Positions 33,161-45,891 of a stretch of DNA of 64,000 nucleotides are shown piece after piece. A program made the translations under genes and the position numbers. Source of the stretch: Caenorhabditis elegans (lineage: Eukaryota; Nematoda; Chromadorea; Rhabditida; Rhabditidae); the NCBI RefSeq assembly GCF_000002985.6, contig NC_003282.8, positions 12,214,001 through 12,278,000 of the forward strand, in the 5' to 3' direction. The notes under the pieces are model-generated. The model was not told the origin of the DNA. It did no database searches and saw only the letters and a list, made by a program, of their open reading frames with translations. Numbering within the stretch: position 1 is the first letter of the stretch; each line of letters begins with the position of its first letter.

Positions 33161-33891
33161 CACAAATACTTTTATTTATTCCAAGTGGTTGGAAAACTCC
33201 AAATGTTCAATTTAAAAAACTGAAATTCAGGCATTTAAAGGCCAATATTCCTATGCTGTCATATTCTTATGCTGACGTCTTCTTATGCTGTCAATTTTTT
33301 TGCATCTTCTTATGCTGTCACGTTCTTATGCTGTCGCCCAGTACATTGAAATCTTCTTATGCTGACATTATTTTTGCCAGCATAAGAATACAAGAGAATT
33401 GGGTCATTTTTGAGAAATATTCTTATGCTGGCAAAAATTTTTTCTGTGGATTTCGTGCTCCAAAAAGAGCACAATACCAAATTTCGAGCTCTTTTGGCTT
33501 TATTTACTATTTATTACGAGTTTGGAATCGACGTAGACACGCTTGAGAACAAAAATTTACTTTTGAATTTGTTTTTATAGCAATTCGAGCATCCTGACAA
33601 CGACGGAAAAGTCTTATTTTAATTCGAAAATGAATTTTACAGACCATTATTCTTATATAGAGAGAGAAAATAGATTTTCTGGCCCATTTTCAAATTTGAG
33701 ATAATTTTTGGAGAAATCTCATTGCCAACTATCCTATGCTGAAACCTTTGAAATATGCTTATGCTGACGTTTTGAATATGCTTATGCTGACGTGCGCTTA
33801 TGCTGACATGAGCTCTCACGAGAATTTCGTGATCCAAAAAACACATTGAAAGCTTATATCAGGACACTTGACGATGGAAAAGAAAACTGAA

Positions 33892-33960
33892 CCTATCCAG
33901 ATTCGAACCAGCAATGACTGTATCTGAAGACCGCGCCCTTAACCACTACACCAAAAGGGC
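33892..33960 (-). other. tRNA-like segment, element 1 left arm
   Basis: Read on the minus strand it begins GCCCTTTTGG, has an A-box-like TGGTGTAGTGG and a B-box GGTTCGAATC, and ends GGATAGG. The two ends do not pair as an acceptor stem, so it is probably not a working tRNA. Its 'GGGCGCGG' tract differs from the other three copies, which read GCGCACGG. Confidence 0.6.
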
Positions 33961-35038
33961 GAGAGGTGCGCGCGTTCTCAAGGAATATATGAAATCAGTC
34001 GAGCTGTATGACAGCTAGAGCTTCTCTCGATTGGAAGATATCTAGTACTTGAAAATGTGTTCATAAGGATTGGAACTACTACAGAATAAGTCATTAAGTT
34101 ATTTTCTGTTCCTATTGTTCAGTTTCTACAAGTAATCTATTCCACATTGACTTTTATTGTGAATTTGAACCTTCCGTTGGCCTAAAATACTTCTGGAGAG
34201 CTACTTTTTTCGAGAGTATTCTTAAGTCTTCTACAAATTCAACTTGTTGGAATATCGGGAACTTCTCCGATTCCTCGAAAATACTGTTGTTTAAAAAAAA
34301 ATTTTGGCCTAAATTTTTTTTCCTCAAAAACACCTTCATTCTGGTATTTTCTAGGAGCATATGTCATCTGTATTGTTTAATGATTTTTTTTGCTTCAAAA
34401 GCTCTGTTTTTGTGCTTAAAACTCTCATTTTTGTCGATTTCCTAATTTAAAACATGGAAATTAAAAACATTTCGGAGTACGGTACACATCGGTGTTTGCG
34501 TACCTTTGCGTATCGTGCATTTAATTCGACTTTTTAATGTACCATGTTTTATGCTAGAAACTCCACAAAAGTTCTTTTTCAGCACACAAACAGAGCTTTT
34601 GAAGCGCAAAAAAATTCTTAAACAATACAGATGACATATGCTCCTAGAAAATACCAGAATGGAGGTGTTTTTGAAGAAAAAAAAATTTAGGCCAAAATTT
34701 TTTTTTAAACAACAATATTTTCGAGGAATCAGAGAAGTTCCCGATTTTCCAACAAGTTGAATTTGTAGAAGACTTAAGAATACTCTCGAAAAAAGTAGCT
34801 CTCCAGAAGTATTTTAGGCCAACGGAAGGTTCAAATTCACAATAAAAGTCAATGTGGAATAGATTTCTTGTAGAAACTGAACATTAGGAACAGAAAATAG
34901 CTCAATGACTTATTCTGTAGTAGTTCCAATCTTTATGAACACATTTTCAAGTACTAGATATCTTCCAATCGAGAGAAGCTCTAGTTGTCATACAGCTCGA
35001 CTGATTTCATATATTCCTTGAGAACGCGCGCACCTTTC

Positions 35039-35107
35039 GCCCTTTTGGTGTAGTGGTTAAGCGCACGGTCTTCAGATACAGTCATTGCTGGTTCGAATCT
35101 GGATAGG
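35039..35107 (+). other. tRNA-like segment, element 1 right arm
   Basis: Mirror copy of the left-arm segment. The A-box TGGTGTAGTGG lies at 35046-35056 and fits TRGYNNANNNG; the B-box GGTTCGAATC is at 35090-35099. Spacing of ~34 bases between boxes is normal for a tRNA-type RNA polymerase III promoter. The acceptor ends do not pair. Confidence 0.6.
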
Positions 35108-36050
35108 TTCAGTTTTCTTTTCCATCGTCAAGTGTCCTGATATAAGCTTTCAATGTGTTTTTTGGATCACGAAATTCTCGTGAGAGCTCTTGTCAGCATA
35201 AGCGCACGTCAGCATAAGCATATTCAAAACGTCAGCATAAGCATATTTCAAAGGTTTCAACATAGGATAGTTGGCAATGAGATTGTGCAATAATATGTGT
35301 CCAACTGAAATGTTGTTGGCGATAGTGTCAAAAACATTTGGTTTTTTAGGTTTCAATATATTTTCGATTTATGAAAAAAAATCCAAAGGGTACCCCTTAC
35401 AAAAATTTTCAAAATTCTTTTTTGTTTTTTTGAAAACTTTTTAAAATTTGATCAGATGTTATAGAAAAATGCAAAGTTTGTAGTTGATCTAGTTTAGATG
35501 TTCCGAACACGATTTCAGACAGAAACCTGAGGTATAGTAGAACCTCAAAATTCAAAATACGCACTCACTTCGGATGTATATATCTCCGTGGGAATATTTT
35601 TTAAGACAAAGTAATAAACTACAAAGTTGTATATCTTAATCTGAAGTACAACTTTGTAGTTGATTGTTTTTCATTAAAAAATTTTTTGGTTGAGATATGA
35701 ACAGAAAAAGAAGAAGAAAATACAAGCATGAAGGTGCCGAACTTTACACAACTTTATCTCGACCAACAAATTTTTTGATAAAAAACAATCAACTACAAAG
35801 TTGTACTTTAGATTAAGATAAACAACTTTGTAGTTGATCACTTTGTCATAAAAAATTTTTCCACGGAGATATCAGCATCCGAAGTGAGTGCGTTTTTTGA
35901 GCTTAGGGGTTCTACTATACCTCAGGTTTTCGTCTGCAATAGTGTGCAGAACATCCAAACTAGAAAAAACTACAAACATTGCATTTTTCTGATCAAATTT
36001 TGAAAAGTTTTCAAAAAAAATAAATTTTGGAAAATTTTATTAGATAGAGG

Positions 36051-36369
36051 TAGTCAAAGAGCATTTGAAGGTAGTCAATGAGCATATATACATCAGATCT
36101 CATCTCCATTTTTCCGGAATTTCAGGAAATGAGAAAGTGCTCGACCCTCTTAGACATCAAAAAGTAACATGTTATTGAAAATTCTGATTTTTCAGCGAAA
36201 AAAACTGAAAATTCTGAAAAATTAGATAAAGGTAGTCAATGAGCCGAAAGGTGGTCAATGATCTAAGGTAGTCAATGAGCAAAGGTAGTCAATGAGCCGA
36301 AAGGTAGTCAATGATCTAAGGTAGTCAAAGAGCAAAAGGTAGTCAAAGAGAAGGTAGTCAAAGAGTGTT
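36051..36369. repeat. GGTAGTCAATGAGC tandem motif array
   Basis: At least nine copies of a 12-20 bp unit around GGTAGTCAATGAG (variant GTCAAAGAG) end at GTGTTTGCC, the same terminus as the GGCAAACACT ends inside element 2. It looks like the subterminal array of a related element whose other end is not visible here. Confidence 0.7.
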
Positions 36370-36942
36370 TGCCCCTAATTTACCGGTTTCACTTCACTCA
36401 TTCCCCTCGTCTTTATGTTTCCTAGTTTTTATCCCCATTTATTGTAAGGGTTTTTCTAGATGAATCGGAATAAAAAAAATCATCTTTATAGTAAATAAAG
36501 CCAAAAGAGCTCGAAATTTGGTATTGTGCTCTTTTTGGAGCACGAAATCCGCAGAAAAAAATTTTGCCAGCATAAGAATATTTTTCAAAACGGGCCAATT
36601 TTCTTGTATTCTTATGCTGACTTCTTTGTCAGCATAAGAAGATTTCAATGTACTGGGCGCCAGCATAAGAAGAAACGACAGCATAAGAATAGACAAAAAA
36701 CCATTGACAGCATAAGAAGACGTCAGCATAAGAATATGACAGCATAGGAATATTGGGCGCATTTATATGGCCGTATTTTTTATTGGGAGATTTATTTATT
36801 TTTCCTAATTTTAAAAATTAATATCTGACTTAAAATTAACTTTTTTAAAAATGTTTCTTCGGGGATTTGTTTGGAATTTTGAGAGCTTTCAGAATTTAAT
36901 TACAAAATTGTTCTAGGTGCCAGAAGCTTCGAGTTCAATCAA

Positions 36943-36992
36943 AAAAACTGAAATTCAGGCATTTATATGACCGTATTTTTTATTGGGAGATT
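36943..36992. repeat. unoccupied paralogous copy of element 1's target site
   Basis: The string AACTGAAATTCAGGCATTTA here continues into TATGACCGTATTTTTTATTG. The left flank of element 1 (33220-33239) and its right flank (36759-36797) match the two halves. So this copy shows the site without the insert and confirms the element boundaries. Confidence 0.7.
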
Positions 36993-37247
36993 TATTTATA
37001 ACCCGTTCTCCCTTAATCAGCAACTTTCTTCTAAGTTTTTATTTACTTTAAAAACATTATATTTTGTATTTTGATACGTTAAAAAGACTTCAAAAATTTC
37101 TAAAATTTTTATTATAATATTAAATACAAGCGATAACAATTCTTGTAAACTGGAAATCCAACAAAAACAAATACAAAATTAATTCAGAAAAAAAAACATT
37201 TTTGAGTGATTTGATAAAACCCGACTCTAATATTGAGCTGCTGATGA

Positions 37248-38648
37248 TTAAAACGTTGTCAAAAAGCTCCAAATCCAACATGGCACTCCTTTCGAAAAGC
37301 TCCACAAGAAACCAAAACAGCTCGAAACTACTTCAGCAGTAATTGAAATCGTTTTTAAAACAACAGGAATTGCTATCCTTGTAACACTTTTCCAGGAAAG
37401 GTTCACGATCAATTGGAATATTTTCCATGAGATCCAACAAAATACTCCAAAAATTCCAGCTATGATTCTCAAATATGTTATGACAAGGTTGAAAACAGTT
37501 CGCAAAAGGCTTCCGGTGTACCTGAAAAAGAAAATTTTCATTTTTTTTTGGATAAGGAATATTGAAAAACTCACATTCCATGTACAATTAATCCAAATAG
37601 AACAATCGTCACTACAATGAAAAAGATAACAACAAGATACTCCTCTTTCTCAACATCGGAATTATGAGATTTATCGTGAAAAGGCTCATTGCTGGTAGAG
37701 TGTGGATTTGAACTTGACGAATATTTGAATCCATCTGAAAATACATTTGTTCATGAAGATCGGGAAAAAAAGGATTCAGCAAAATAATGAATAAATTCAC
37801 ATTCCACATTTCGACTTGAACGAAAAATACTACTAAAAATATAAAAATCATCATACCTGTATATTCTTCATGTCGTCGCCTTGCGTACTGATTTTGTTGT
37901 TGTTGCTGATAAGACTGATAATTTCTATAAACAAAATCCTCGTAATCATCAGCACTTCCTGTATTCCAACTAAATCCACTTTTCTCTTCACGATAATCCT
38001 TTCTTGTATTATTAAAATTATTCTGATTTGAATATGGATTTGATTTCTTATTTTTAGTCTTTTGGTGATTGGATTGATGGTTCTTACTGTTGTGGTCCTG
38101 TTTGAATGATGAATTTTGCTCATTTCTTTTTCCATTACTTGGCTCAGATTTCTTGTGGTTTTGTCTTTGAGTATTTGAATATTCCTGTTTTCGTTGATTT
38201 TTATTACGATTACAACGCTTATAAAGATTCTCATTTGATGTTTCAGCGTTTTGTAGATCATACTGTCTTCGCTTGGCCGGATCCATAAGAAGTGAAAATG
38301 CATTATTGACAACTGAAATTTTGAATTCGGATTAAGATTTTTAAACACTTAATTAAGAAATTGATGGAAGTTTTTTTTTTTCATTTATATTTTCAGTCAT
38401 TACAAGAAAGTTGTTCAATTTCAGATATTTTTGAGCTCACCTTTCGATGCTTCAGTAGCACTTGGATGCTTGCATTTGTCCGGATGAACTTCTCGAATTC
38501 GTTTTCTAAATGCAATACGAATCTCGTCTGGACTGGCTTTCTTATCAACGTTGAGGATTTTGTAGAAATCCTTGCACTGGCAAATATTTCCAACCAAGTC
38601 TTTTTGCTCTTTTGTGTAATCGGATTTTGCAGATTTTGGTATTGGCAT
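37248..38648 (-). CDS. DNAJB12/14-like J-domain membrane protein
   Basis: Four exons (38441-38648, 37857-38312, 37575-37734, 37248-37521) join to 365 residues. A short N-terminus leads into a J domain at residues ~25-95: [20 protein letters not shown], an intact HPD ([11 protein letters not shown]), then [11 protein letters not shown], with the intron inside the domain. An Asn/Gln/Lys-rich low-complexity linker of about 110 residues follows, then a transmembrane segment ([20 protein letters not shown]) and a C-terminal region with more hydrophobic helices. The opening [17 protein letters not shown] resembles DNAJB12/14, ER-membrane J-proteins that recruit Hsp70 to the cytosolic face. The C-terminus differs from the usual DUF1977, so this is a diverged paralogue. 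A possible SL acceptor (TTTTTTCAG) lies ~24 bp upstream of the ATG. Confidence 0.87.
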
Positions 38649-39768
38649 TTCAACGATAGAGTCACTGTTGTGCTGAAAAAACTTGGTTTATATGTAAATT
38701 TTTCAGAGAGGAAAACAGTGGAATATTACGATTTTGCTAAAAGTAAAATGTTAGAACAGTTTTGAAGAATTAATTTCACATTTTTAGTTTTTAAAAACAG
38801 GAATACGGTTTTTTTTAATTTGAATGTTTTTTGGTTTGTACATTGACAACTTTATTTCTATACTTCCCAATTTGAATATCAGAGGAATTATTACCAGAAA
38901 ATAGCAAAATTAAATGGAAAGTAAACAAACATGTTTCATTGTTCTGACATAAAAAAACGAATTTTCGAAAGTTTTATGTTAGTTGGGCACGAAAAAAATA
39001 TTTTTCAAAAAAAACCCGATAAAAACCGACAAAAATGAAGAAAATTAGTTGATAAAACATAAATCGGCACGAAAGAAAGTTTAAATAGATTGGCTAATCT
39101 CGTAAATCGACACGAACACAGTTCGCTCCAATGAGACGTCTCTGGCGCGCATTTGAAAAATCTTTGGGTGCACAAAAAAATTCGCAATTGAAGTTTAAAA
39201 TCAGGGATTTTTAAAAAAATGTTTTCACATCGATATTCGAATTCAGGGATAAATTCGGAGTCGTTTAATTTTCCATATTTCGGTACCGATCTTCCACCAT
39301 TATGAAGCTGGAAGTTTAGAGGAGTTATTGCTTCAATGGGAGCTTTCCGAACTTACCGAGTAGTTTTATATTTTCAATCGAAACCTGTAGATTTTTTGTA
39401 GTAGTTGTGTAATATCCTCTCATTTTAAAATTAAATCAAATTTCTGTTTAAACTTGATGGGCATTTTTAATGTTAAGGCTTAGTTAGAAATTGTAATTTC
39501 CTAATCCTAAAAATACAAGTGCATGCCGCACGTTTTCATTTTTACTTCTTAAAAAGGTCCTTTTAAAATGATGCACAAGTGCCTTTTTTTGAGAACTATA
39601 TCTTCTGAACTGAACAGTTTTGTTGTTATGGAAATCAGAATTGTAGCTCAAAAAAGATCAGAGAAAATTGAAAAAATTCAAGTTGAAAAGCTGGCAAAGG
39701 AATGTATATAAAAACAACAATATGAACTAAAAAGAAAAGTGACAGAGTTTGGAAATAAGTTGAGTTGT
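38649..39768. other. intergenic upstream of the J-protein gene
   Basis: AT-rich, with a TCGTAAATCGACACGAACAC motif near 39100 shared with other repeats in the window. No gene seen. Confidence 0.55.
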
Positions 39769-40984
39769 TCAGGAAACATATTTTTTAATTGATTCGCAAG
39801 TGTTCCAAAATTGTTCAGTCCACGTTTCAATGGTGCTCGATTCATAGTTTCTACTGGCCCAAAGTTGCTCCATCAAAGTTTTCAATAAATTCATTATGTC
39901 TTTAATTTCATTTGAGCTGCTCCAAAATTGTGGCAAATACTGTTTTACTACTTGATCTTTTACTACGCATCTCTTTTACTACAGGATCTCTTTTACTACG
40001 GAATCTCTTTTACTACGAATTCCACATCTAGATCTTTTACTACAATTGGATCTTTTACTACGGAATCTCTTTTACTACGAATTCCACATCTAGATCTTTT
40101 ACTACAATTGGATCTTTTACTACGGAATCTCTTTTACTACGGTTTACCAACATAGCTCTTTTACTACAGTACGAAAATTTTCAATTTAAGAATTAAATTT
40201 TCAACAACATTATGCCGGCAAACACTCATTGACTACCTTCTCATTGACTACCTTTGCTCATTGACTACCTCTATCTAATAAAATTTTCCAAAATTTTTTT
40301 TGAAAACTTTTCAAAATTTGATCAGAAAAATGCAATGTTTGTAGTTTTTCTAGTTTGGATGTTCTGCACACGATTGCAGACGAAAACCTGAGGTTTAGTA
40401 GAACACCTAAGCTCAAAAAACGCACTCACTTCGGATGCTGATATCTCCGTGGAAAAATTTTTTATGACAAAGTGATCAACTACAAAGTTGTTTATCTTAA
40501 TCTAAAGTACAACTTTGTAGTTGATTGTTTTTTATCAAAAAATTTGTTGGTCGAGATAAAGTTGTGTAAAGTTCGGCACCTTCATGCTTGTATTTTCTTC
40601 TTCTTTTTCTGTTCATATCTCAACCAACAAATTTTTTGATAAAAAACGATTAACTACAAAATTGTACTTTATATTAAGATAAACAACTTTGTAGTTGATC
40701 ACTTTGTCATAAAAAATTATTACACGGAGATATCAGCATCCGAAGTGAGTGCGTTTTTTGAATTTTGAGGTTCTACTATACCTCAGGTTTTAGTCAGAAT
40801 TCGTGTTCAGAACATCTAAACTAGATAAACTACAAACATTGCATTTTTCTATAACATCTGATCAAATTTTTAAAAGTTTTGAAAAAAATTTTGAAACTTT
40901 TTGTAAGGGGACGAGAATTTCGTGATCCAAAAAACACATTGAAAGCTTATATCAGGACACTTGACGCTGTAAAAGAAAACTGAA

Positions 40985-41053
40985 CCTATCCAGATTCGAA
41001 CCAGCAATGACTGTATCTGAAGACCGTGCGCTTAACCACTACACCAAAAGGGC
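40985..41053 (-). other. tRNA-like segment, element 2 left arm
   Basis: Same 69-base segment as in element 1, minus orientation, with intact A-box and B-box matches. Ends do not pair as an acceptor stem. Confidence 0.6.
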
Positions 41054-42058
41054 GAGAGGTGCGCGCGTTCTCAAGGAATATATGAAATCAGTCGAGCTGT
41101 ATGACAACTAGAGCTTCTCTCGATTGGAAGATATCTAGTACTTGAAAATGTGTTCATAAAGCTTGGAACTACTACAGAATAAATCATTAAGCTATTTTCA
41201 TTCCTAAAACTTCTGGAGAGCTACTTTTTTCGAGAGTATTCTTAAGTCTTCTACAAATTCAACTTGTTGGAAAATCGAGAACTTCTCTGATTCCTCGAAA
41301 ATATTGTTGTTTAAAAAAAAATTTTGGCCTAAATTTTTTTTTCCTCAAAAACACCTCCATTCTGGTATTTTCTAGGAGCATATGTCATCTGTATTGTTTA
41401 ATAATTTTTTTCTGCTTCAAAAGCTCTGTTTTTGTGCTTAAAACTCTCATTTTTGTCGATTTCCTAATTTAAAACAAGGAAATTAAAAACATTTCGGAGT
41501 ACGGTACACATCGGTGTTTGCGTACCTTTGCGTATCGTGCATTTAATTCGACGACGTTTGTATATTTTTAAATGCAAAAATCAACGAAAAAGTTCTTTTT
41601 TAGCACAAAAACAGAGCTTTTGAAGCAGAAAAAAATTATTAAACAGGACAGATGACATATGCTCCTAGAAAATACCAGAATGAAGGTGTTTTTGAGGAAA
41701 AAAAATTTAGGCCAAAATTTTTTTTTAAACAACAGTATTTTCGAGGAATCGGAGAAGTTCCCGATATTCCAACAAGTTGAATTTGTAGAAGACTTAAGAA
41801 TACTCTCGAAAAAAGTAGCTCTCCAGAAGTATTTTAGGCCAACGGAAGGTTCAAATTCACAATAAAAGTCAATGTGGAATAGATTTCTTGTAGAAACTGA
41901 ACATTAGGAACAGAAAATAGCTCAATGACTTATTCTGTAGTAGTTCCAATCTTTATGAACACATTTTCAAGTACTAGATATCTTCCAATCGAGAGAAGCT
42001 CTAGTTGTCATACAGCTCGACTGATTTCATATATTCCTTGAGAACGCGCGCACCTTTC

Positions 42059-42127
42059 GCCCTTTTGGTGTAGTGGTTAAGCGCACGGTCTTCAGATACA
42101 GTCATTGCTGGTTCGAATCTGGATAGG
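42059..42127 (+). other. tRNA-like segment, element 2 right arm
   Basis: Plus-strand mirror copy, identical over the 69 bases to the right-arm copy in element 1. A-box TGGTGTAGTGG at 42066-42076, B-box GGTTCGAATC at 42110-42119. Confidence 0.6.
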
Positions 42128-43722
42128 TTCAGTTTTCTTTTCCATCGTCAAGTGTCCTGATATAAGCTTTCAATGTGTTTTTTGGATCACGAAATTCTCG
42201 TCCCCTTACAAAAAGTTTCAAAATTTTTTTGAAAACTTTTTAAAATTTGATCAGATGTTATAGAAAAATGCAATGTTTGTAGTTTATCTAGTTTAGATGT
42301 TCTGAACACGAATTCTGACTAAAACCTGAGGTATAGTAGAACCTCAAAATTCAAAAAACGCACTCACTTCGGATGCTGATATCTCCGTGTAATAATTTTT
42401 TATGACAAAGTGATCAACTACAAAGTTGTTTATCTTAATATAAAGTACAATTTTGTAGTTAATCGTTTTTTATCAAAAAATTTGTTGGTTGAGATATGAA
42501 CAGAAAAAGAAGAAGAAAATACAAGCATGAAGGTGCCGAACTTTACACAACTTTATCTCGACCAACAAATTTTTTGATAAAAAACAATCAACTACAAAGT
42601 TGTACTTTAGATTAAGATAAACAACTTTGTAGTTGATCACTTTGTCATAAAAAATTTTTCCACGGAGATATCAGCATCCGAAGTGAGTGCGTTTTTTGAG
42701 CTTAGGTGTTCTACTAAACCTCAGGTTTTCGTCTGCAATCGTGTGCAGAACATCCAAACTAGAAAAACTACAAACATTGCATTTTTCTGATCAAATTTTG
42801 AAAAGTTTTCAAAAAAAATTTTGGAAAATTTTATTAGATAGAGGTAGTCAATGAGCAAAGGTAGTCAATGAGAAGGTAGTCAATGAGTGTTTGCCGGCAT
42901 AATGTTGTTGAAAATTTAATTCTTAAATTGAAAATTTTCGTACTGTAGTAAAAGAGCTATGTTGGTAAACCGTAGTAAAAGAGATTCCGTAGTAAAAGAT
43001 CCAATTGTAGTAAAAGATCTAGATGTGGAATTCGTAGTAAAAGAGATTCCGTAGTAAAAGATCCAATTGTAGTAAAAGATCTAGATGTGGAATTCGTAGT
43101 AAAAGAGATTCCGTAGTAAAAGATCCAATTGTAGTAAAAGATCTAGATGTGGAATTCGTAGTAAAAGAGATTCCGTAGTAAAAGATCCAATTGTAGTAAA
43201 AGATCTAGATGTGGAATTCGTAGTAAAAGAGATTCCGTAGTAAAAGAGATCCTGTAGTAAAAGAGATGCGTAGTAAAAGATCAAGTAGTAAAACAGTATT
43301 TGCCCAAAATTGTTTATTCCACGTTCCAATGGTGTTCGATGCATCACTCTTACTCGTCCAAAGTTGCTCCGACAAAGTTTTGAAAATGTTCAATTTTTCT
43401 AGGTTTTCAGTCGAACTGCTCCAAAATGTTTTTGGAAAATTTCCAATGATGTAAAATTTTTCTATGAGATCATTCGAACTGATCCAAAGTTGTTCATTCA
43501 GAGTATTGAAAATATTCAATTTACTCATTAATTAAAAAATTTTATTTTGCCAAAAATTCACTAAAACGCAAAACGTAATGTTACAATTACAGAGATGAAG
43601 CGAATAATGAGTTTTATAGATATTTATATAATATATATTTAACAAAAATTATTCATGAAAACTCGAAAAATGAGGTGACAAAAAAAGTTGAAGAAAAAAA
43701 TATTTTGAGCCATTTACAACTG

Positions 43723-45192
43723 TTACAAAGTTACTAAGTCGTAATCAAAGATTCTGGCATTTCTCAAAAATATACTTGGGCTGCTCAAAAATTGATTCGT
43801 CCGAGTGAAAGATGAATCAAAAATGTTTGAGATAGCTTCCTTTGCTGGAGGAACCACAGTGTCTTCGAAAAACCTCCAGAAAAACTTCAGAATTGAAACT
43901 GCCGTCCTTCCCATTCTTTTAAAAAAGAATACAGTTACAGTCCACCGAATCAGAAACATAGCAGCACGTTTGAGCAATCGGCCATTATCATCATCGTCGC
44001 CCTCCGATGGAGTGTCGGTTATTCGTTGAGGTGCATCTTAATATATAAATGTATATTTAAAAGAGATCTATCACTTGTGGGTTTCATAACTTAATTTGAT
44101 GTGCTCATTTATATCAATGAGAATATAAAAAGAAGTACAAAATGTTTTTTTGAAAAGTCTTGTATCGATTGTTTTCTTCGAATAATGCTAACGAGTTTAA
44201 AACTAACTAAATGTCGATTTTTGTCTAGAAGTTTATCGAAAATTCGGGTAACACGAAATCATCGACGTTTTTTTGTTGTGAATTAGTAAGGAATCCTCGT
44301 AAAACGAATGAAAAATAGAATATTATTGAAATTTTAAAAATAATGTAAAGATTTTGGAACAAAAAAGTAGATGTGCAACAATTATGGAGACTGCAATACT
44401 GATTTTCAAAGGTGTCTTTGGGCAATCGTAACGGATACGCAATACTAATAGATAATAAACGGTATTTTCTCACGGTTATCAAAATATGAACGTACTTGAA
44501 GGTTCGCCATAACGTTGTCTCAATTGATGATCTAGTGCTAGTTGGAGTTTATCAAGGTCACACCCGGTATAATCGTAAGGACTTCCAGTATTTGGATGAT
44601 AATATGTTTGTCTCATATTATCCAAACTCCTATTTGAATGAGAAATGCGTGAGTTCCTTGATATTCCATCAAGCTGTCTATCATATTCTTCGCGTAGGCC
44701 TGGATCGGAAAGCGTAGAATATGCCAGACCGAAGGCTGAAATTATTGTTTTTGATTAAACGTGGACAGTCGTGACAGGTGGGATAATTTTCAAAAAAGTC
44801 ACAATTTATAATTTTCAACAATGTAGTCAGTTTTCCCTGTGTTCCATGCGAAAATTAAATCCCTTGTCACTATCATAAAATAAAAATAAAATAATTTTGA
44901 ACATTTTTTGAATACCCGTTTCAGATTTTGCGGTTTTGTAGCACAATTTATCAATTCAATCAGAAAAAAAATTCTTCATCAAAATATTCGTCAACCTCCT
45001 AGTCTTCATTAAGTTCTCAGTAAATTTCAAGTGCAATTTTTGTCACGTACCTAAATCCTTTTTAAACACGTATGGATCATTCGGGTCTACTTTTGCCATT
45101 GAATTCATATATGCATTATAAATTTCAAAGTGAGTTGCATTCTTGCGAACTTTCAGAACTTGGTAATGATTCTGATTTTCAAATGAAGACAT
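43723..45192 (-). CDS. J-like protein lacking the HPD motif, hydrophobic C-terminus
   Basis: Three exons join in phase: 45051-45192, 44496-44735 and 43723-44036, giving 231 residues. The N-terminus reads NHYQVLKVRKNATHFEIYNA, like helices I-II of a J domain, and exon 2 continues AFGLAYSTLSDPGLREEYDR, like helix IV and the end. Between them, the expected HPD is replaced by KVDPNDPYVF, and the region is shortened, so stimulation of Hsp70 ATPase by the usual mechanism is unlikely. An acidic stretch (SEGDDDDNG) precedes a hydrophobic helix (MFLIRWTVTVFFF) and an aromatic amphipathic tail. It lies beside a canonical J-protein and two relics on the same strand, so local duplication and divergence is likely. 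The exon 3 acceptor is TTAAG rather than TTTCAG. Confidence 0.72.
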
Positions 45193-45891
45193 TTCAATTG
45201 TCGACCTGAAAAATTCAGTTTACTTAAAAAACAAATTAATTGAAATACTTAACGATTTGGTAATTTGTAAAAAGAAAAAGGAAGTTGTTTTTTTATTAAC
45301 TGGGATATAATATAATTTCTATTTCTTTGATTTCGTATGTTTTTCTTGAAATTCTTAAAAATTGTCAAAGAATTTTGTGAAGGTTCCGGTGAAAAGGGGC
45401 ACGTTTGTTTCAAGGTCCTGTTATGTTAAAAAATCGATACAAATCAATTTTTATACTAAACTATCCAAACAATATTCCGATTAAGCTTCGTAGTTATTGT
45501 TACATGTAAGTTCTACTAGCTTTGTACTCCAATTTTCTTTTTGAAAGTTTCAAAAGTAACAAATTCGGGTGATATCGTAAAATGAGATTATGAGCATCGG
45601 AAAAGTCGAATAGACGACAGAAAAGATGTATTGCATAGTTGGCCGCATTTTTCTCTGCAGTCTCTCGGTGCGATATTTAACACGCAAAGGGCCGTACCAC
45701 GACACCCGCCGAATTGAGGTAAATGCGGTCACGGCCACCAAGGGGATTTTAAATTCAGAGTTTTTCTTCGAGAGACTCTGAATACTGACAACATTTGATT
45801 AAAAACTTTTTATTGTAATTAATGTACCCGAAAGATAACAGGATATGATTGAAGAATTAAATGTTATATCACAAACTCAAGATATAAATAA
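45193..45891. other. intergenic, partial inverted repeat
   Basis: A GC-richer block at 45640-45745 has TTGGCCGCATTT near its start and AAATGCGGTCACGGCC near its end, a loose inverted repeat around ATTTAACACGCAAAGGGCCG. It is probably a repeat fragment. No gene seen. Confidence 0.5.

Follow-up and report, generated by a model that had tools for sequence, protein, structure and literature searches.

The element at positions 39932..43304 of the window (the whole stretch of 64,000 nucleotides analyzed here, C4:12214001-12278000) is an ordinary, clean transposon insertion made by a well-known process: very probably a non-autonomous foldback DNA transposon, presumably moved by a Mutator-like activity, inserted by transposition into a tryptophan-rich reading frame and duplicated 9 bp of its target. 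Genome searches covering 100,286,401 bp in 7 contigs, together with the window itself, yielded the ends and arms of the element, an in-frame empty site, and a 9-bp duplication length that recurs across the family. At this locus, a precise insertion comes with its own internal control for the empty site, and a foldback family of Caenorhabditis elegans that makes 9-bp duplications is tied to a candidate source element.

Insertion site and target-site duplication

Two identical copies of CAAAATTGT abut the element, the left at 39923..39931 and the right at 43305..43313, and the direct repeat is exactly 9 bp long. Once the element and one copy are taken out, reading from the minus-strand ATG at 43528-43526 continues without a shift as far as the stop codon at 39771-39769, a stop-free frame of 125 residues in which the duplicated 9-mer spans codons 72-75, the insertion point lying inside a codon. 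The landing scar of this 3.4-kilobase element in the Trp-rich frame is genuine and the evidence at the junction is strong; the exact repeat and the exact rejoining of the frame bear out the first-pass annotation, which had proposed a clean past insertion of a foldback element between two identical 9-bp flanks.

A neighboring, unoccupied repeat unit on the minus strand (39784..39928), in overlap with the frame's 3' part, serves as a related empty site within the locus itself. An ungapped alignment of this unit to the joined flanks gives 108 matches in 145 positions, CAAAATTGT being common to both, and the count drops to 47-60 when the right flank is slid by 1-6 bases; the slide is chiefly a check on the register of that flank, the left part being short. 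The left part alone matches at 13 of 22 positions, a value equalled by 43 of 20,000 random 22-mers from the window. On the simplest reading of this alignment, the extra DNA would consist of precisely the element and one 9-mer.

The family was surveyed genome-wide using the 24-base tip GGCAAATACTGTTTTACTACTTGA as seed, with at most one mismatch allowed, which gave 51 occurrences against 0 for the same tip read backwards. On the retrieved loci, these 51 ends paired into 19 two-ended copies and left 13 single; two more copies with both ends and one more single end, carrying a sibling tip (described below), were met by chance rather than by systematic search and were added. The duplication counts rest on the resulting 21 two-ended copies, the present element included, the 14 single ends being outside the count. 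Exact 9-bp duplications, all different, flank 16 of the 21; L015 has an 11-bp repeat in poly-A, L027 has a 9-mer with one mismatch, and no duplication was found in L017, L035, and L063 (3/21). In a chance control, a 9-mer was shared by none of 420 mismatched left/right flank pairs. The family is accordingly present at unrelated sites with target-site duplications, as expected of foldback elements, and the mostly 9-bp length is that of Mutator-like elements (MULEs). Because exact and mutually different 9-bp repeats are carried by so many of the two-ended copies, the 9-bp repeats around the present element are a true target-site duplication. As a separate observation, one copy of 194 bp (L020:557-750) is little more than two tips placed back to back; it is flanked by a 9-bp duplication and is a possible minimal substrate.

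The interrupted frame and alternative readings

The target is a minus-strand Trp-rich tandem-repeat frame downstream of a DnaJ-like gene, the 5' part of which now lies at 43314..43528 and the 3' part at 39769..39931. At present, the 5' part reads into the element arm and ends after 107 residues; a ribosome would pass from it into the arm and stop there. Related Trp-rich repeats, already described in the first-pass annotation, are apparent when the joined frame is shifted against itself by 39 residues (30/86 identical), 21 residues (19/104), and 42 residues (17/83). Two minus-strand genes, which we take to encode DnaJ domains, flank the insertion at 37200-38700 and 43723-45200 (by eye); Pfam found nothing in the two right-hand DnaJ-like exon pieces.

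Whether a gene was broken is a question apart from the insertion itself, and the possibility that the frame is a degenerate 63/126-bp tandem repeat that lacks stops by chance is a serious one, falling somewhat short of probable. The open frame alone is only mildly surprising, because open runs of at least 126 codons arose in 43 of 4,000 random 700-nt sequences (dinucleotide model, one strand) and, among random tandem arrays of six 63-bp units, 532, 301, and 167 of 4,000 (4-13%) had one of the three frames open at unit divergences of 10, 15, and 20%, respectively; on the other hand, the three units of the frame were all stop-free in just 1-6% of neutral simulation trials at 10-18% per-branch divergence. 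The differences between units are spread evenly over the codon positions (9, 12, and 10 for units 2-3; 6, 6, and 8 for units 1-2), and the dN/dS ratio (NG86) of ~0.7 for units 2-3 also fits a noncoding repeat, whereas the ratio of ~0.4 for units 1-2 (21 codons), the spacing of successive Trp-rich units by 42 and 39 whole codons, and an acceptor-like TTTTAG 32 nt before the ATG (read by eye) point to a coding frame. Comparisons over 12 codons of the repeat units, with very few sites, ranged from ~0.3 to 1.9. Apart from its own two halves, a genome search for a protein paralogue returned just two matches, neither significant (E 0.22 and 2.2), and Pfam gave three matches to the frame, all below the cut-off (best E 0.021). 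Taken together with a paralogue search by DNA that covered the right flank only, the evidence on coding status is mixed, and the paralogue, Pfam, and constraint results do not establish the earlier claim that removal of the element defines the ancestral gene.

Two further readings concern the origin of the frame and of the repeats. It is unlikely that the frame is the C-terminal repeat region, or a duplicate thereof, of the DnaJ-like gene directly upstream (exon 43723-44037), with which it shares strand, adjacency, and a 22-nt in-phase match (NQFLSSP versus KQFWSSS) whose score was reached by 1 of 300 shuffles; however, that exon has its own terminal stop codon and no protein-level similarity to the frame (486/500 shuffles as good), and the left-hand DnaJ-like exon shows no protein-level similarity either (481/500 shuffles, with 29/300 for nucleotides). 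Far less probable still is that the 9-bp repeats are two local tandem-repeat units between which the element arrived by recombination rather than transposition. Of eight occurrences of CAAAATTGT on the plus strand of the window, one does lie at 39806, in the neighboring Trp-rich unit, but the repeat at the junctions is limited to exactly 9 bp, 9-bp duplications are found family-wide at unrelated sites, and the junction alignment is in register solely at exact removal. The family census and the unoccupied repeat unit likewise argue against the 9-bp repeats being part of a longer unrelated duplication, an outcome that the first-pass annotation had named as a refutation.

Structure and age of the element

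Insertion by transposition, the preferred reading, would have been that of a foldback transposon with long inverted arms made up partly of short tandem repeats. The element (39932..43304) is a composite, noncoding foldback of 3373 bp, delimited by its inverted arms, its tips, and its family copies, which starts with GGCAAATACTG and ends with CAGTATTTGCC; its inverted arms, of near-full length and with internal tandem repeats in the manner of foldback elements, agree at 98.8% of 1240 aligned positions and at 97.1% of the outermost 239. The left outer arm (39932..40180, plus strand) comprises the tip GGCAAATACTG and 17/62-bp tandem repeats of the TCTTTTACTACG kind, with 2.9 copies of the 62-bp unit, and the right outer arm (42932..43304, minus strand) is its inverse, with 4.9 copies. 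An inner stretch (40217..42895) is bounded by the sibling tip GGCAAACACTCATTGACTACC; since its flanks are mirror images and not direct repeats, it seems to belong to the arms and not to have been inserted separately and recently. The central palindromic module (40911..42201) is also present in the neighboring foldback, at 33818-35181, and elsewhere, with at least 70 matching pieces genome-wide, the element's own included. Among pieces of at least 150 bp, L035, L036, and L037 have the outer layers without the central module and L013 has both; the element looks assembled from layers, through events whose sequence we infer.

The neighboring foldback (33240-36758) has CTTATGCTGTC repeats and near-identical 9-mer flanks, GCATTTAAA and GCATTTATA, and an element-free duplicate of its target is present at ~36940-37000. 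Both arms of the central module of the present element contain a tRNA-like stretch (40980-41054 and 42058-42132) with sequences that we take to be A-box- and B-box-like; the stretch has 40 scored places genome-wide, its own two included, at 83-100% identity, two of them inside an element with the sibling tip (L032). In the window, ARAGORN reported 0 tRNA genes and Rfam reported 0 RNA genes at the gathering threshold. A tRNA identity was rejected in 40900-42220, where a permissive Rfam search gave 12 matches, all below the gathering score and none to tRNA, and the stretch folds no better than its shuffles (z 0.80; 156/200 shuffles fold at least as well).

The low decay of the frame on both sides had been taken in the first-pass annotation as a sign of a recent insertion, possibly polymorphic between wild isolates; this is not established, since simulated frame survival limits the age just loosely. 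In a neutral model of uniform substitution, with 0.15 indels per substitution of which 80% were taken to disrupt, the frame remained intact in 1743, 996, 259, and 65 of 2,000 trials at 0.2, 1, 3, and 5% divergence, respectively, and, given the survival at 1% and 3%, an intact frame alone cannot tell whether the insertion is polymorphic or far older. The 98.8% arm identity is not a clock either, because palindrome arms can homogenize. Sampled every 75 bases, with one sampled point lacking coverage, the best matches among the retrieved family copies stood at 96.7-98.1% along most of its length, rising to 98.6-100% close to the tips, and elsewhere in the genome there is a 98% match to the leading 296 bases of the central module. 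Polymorphism of the insertion within the species is possible; should there be isolates that lack the element, the site would amount to a natural gene disruption and would report directly on the activity of the family.

Candidate mobilizer and known systems

The transposase that moved the element would have been Mutator-like and supplied in trans, for instance the apparent product of a related element at C5:14901805-14907303. This element of 5499 bp has its own 9-bp duplication, and a transposase of its type is proposed as the mover because the ends of the two elements are alike (~80% over 239 bp); judged by sequence, the 5.5-kb C5 element is the likely mobilizer. Fifteen exon candidates were picked in it by eye, each open in at least one frame; joined by script, they lost the frame at several joints, with stops in all three frames, so the splice sites are guesses, and a protein was chained by hand from 14 of the 15, the last being omitted. 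In this protein, the motifs D-T-T-Y (from 280), M-D-G-E (355), C-x2-H (375), and N-x-S-E-x-F-N (470) follow one another, presumably the order of DDE-type residues and C-x2-H that is usual for Mutator-like transposases. By eye, the protein matches only roughly the 25-residue MULE signature as printed in PMC2725143, the stretch being 2 residues short and having S where G is expected. With introns ignored, a six-frame search of the genome gave no match to the Pfam MULE model (PF10551) at E values up to 1, and hmmscan of the hand-chained protein and two of its parts found no family.

A second copy shows 97% identity across the 158 residues compared, and no transposase-bearing copy with exactly the tip of the present element was found. 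Seven relatives of the transposase stretch (35-49% identity) had no sibling tip, at up to 5 mismatches, within ~1.5 kb on either side, and their real ends may lie further out. The second transposase-bearing copy (L073:521 to ~6144) is missing most of its right repeat arm, and its tip-like end, CATTTGCC, is present twice, in a poly-A setting. Inside the C5 element, beside the transposase exons, lies an exon candidate with an MSP-like domain (L031:4836-5198); this last candidate scores 25.3 bits, just under the Pfam cut-off of 25.9, and its place in one transcript with the transposase exons is a guess. A more far-reaching scenario, in which a still-mobile family with a divergent Mutator-like transposase missed by Pfam, beside an MSP-like exon, stacks repeat shells around shared palindromic cores and in which the present, still polymorphic copy broke a real lineage-specific Trp-repeat gene, strikes us as improbable.

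Among known systems, the FB/NOF foldback elements of Drosophila have long tandem-repeat arms, 9-bp duplications, and, in NOF, a transposase related to Mutator; the present family resembles them in its tandem-repeat arms and 9-bp duplications, a likeness of description and not of sequence. In the literature search, in which most titles were judged unopened, no paper was recognized as describing this C. elegans family, which may have an existing name in Repbase. CEMUDR1 and CEMUDR2 are listed as Repbase Mutator-type transposons of C. elegans in PMC2725143, and CEMUDR1 is also named in PMC7917558 and PMC6873666; the C5 element, apparently likewise of Mutator type and from the same host, may be one of the two, the likeness being one of description and not of sequence. 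The closest described kind that we found is the Tm1 Mutator/Foldback family of root-knot nematodes, as presented in PMC3169594. Membership of Tm1 itself was rejected by eye, the family tips having other terminal motifs and another repeat unit than the terminal motifs and 14-bp repeat given there, and the Tm1-A transposase, which is described as Phantom/Mutator-like, has a FLYWCH domain detected by Pfam, whereas Pfam matches nothing in the candidate from C. elegans. What the two share, on the same account, is (i) composite inverted ends of short tandem repeats that differ in repeat number, (ii) target-site duplications without a clear consensus, 8-10 bp long and mostly 9 (45/53 in Tm1), and (iii) noncoding groups alongside a transposase-coding group.
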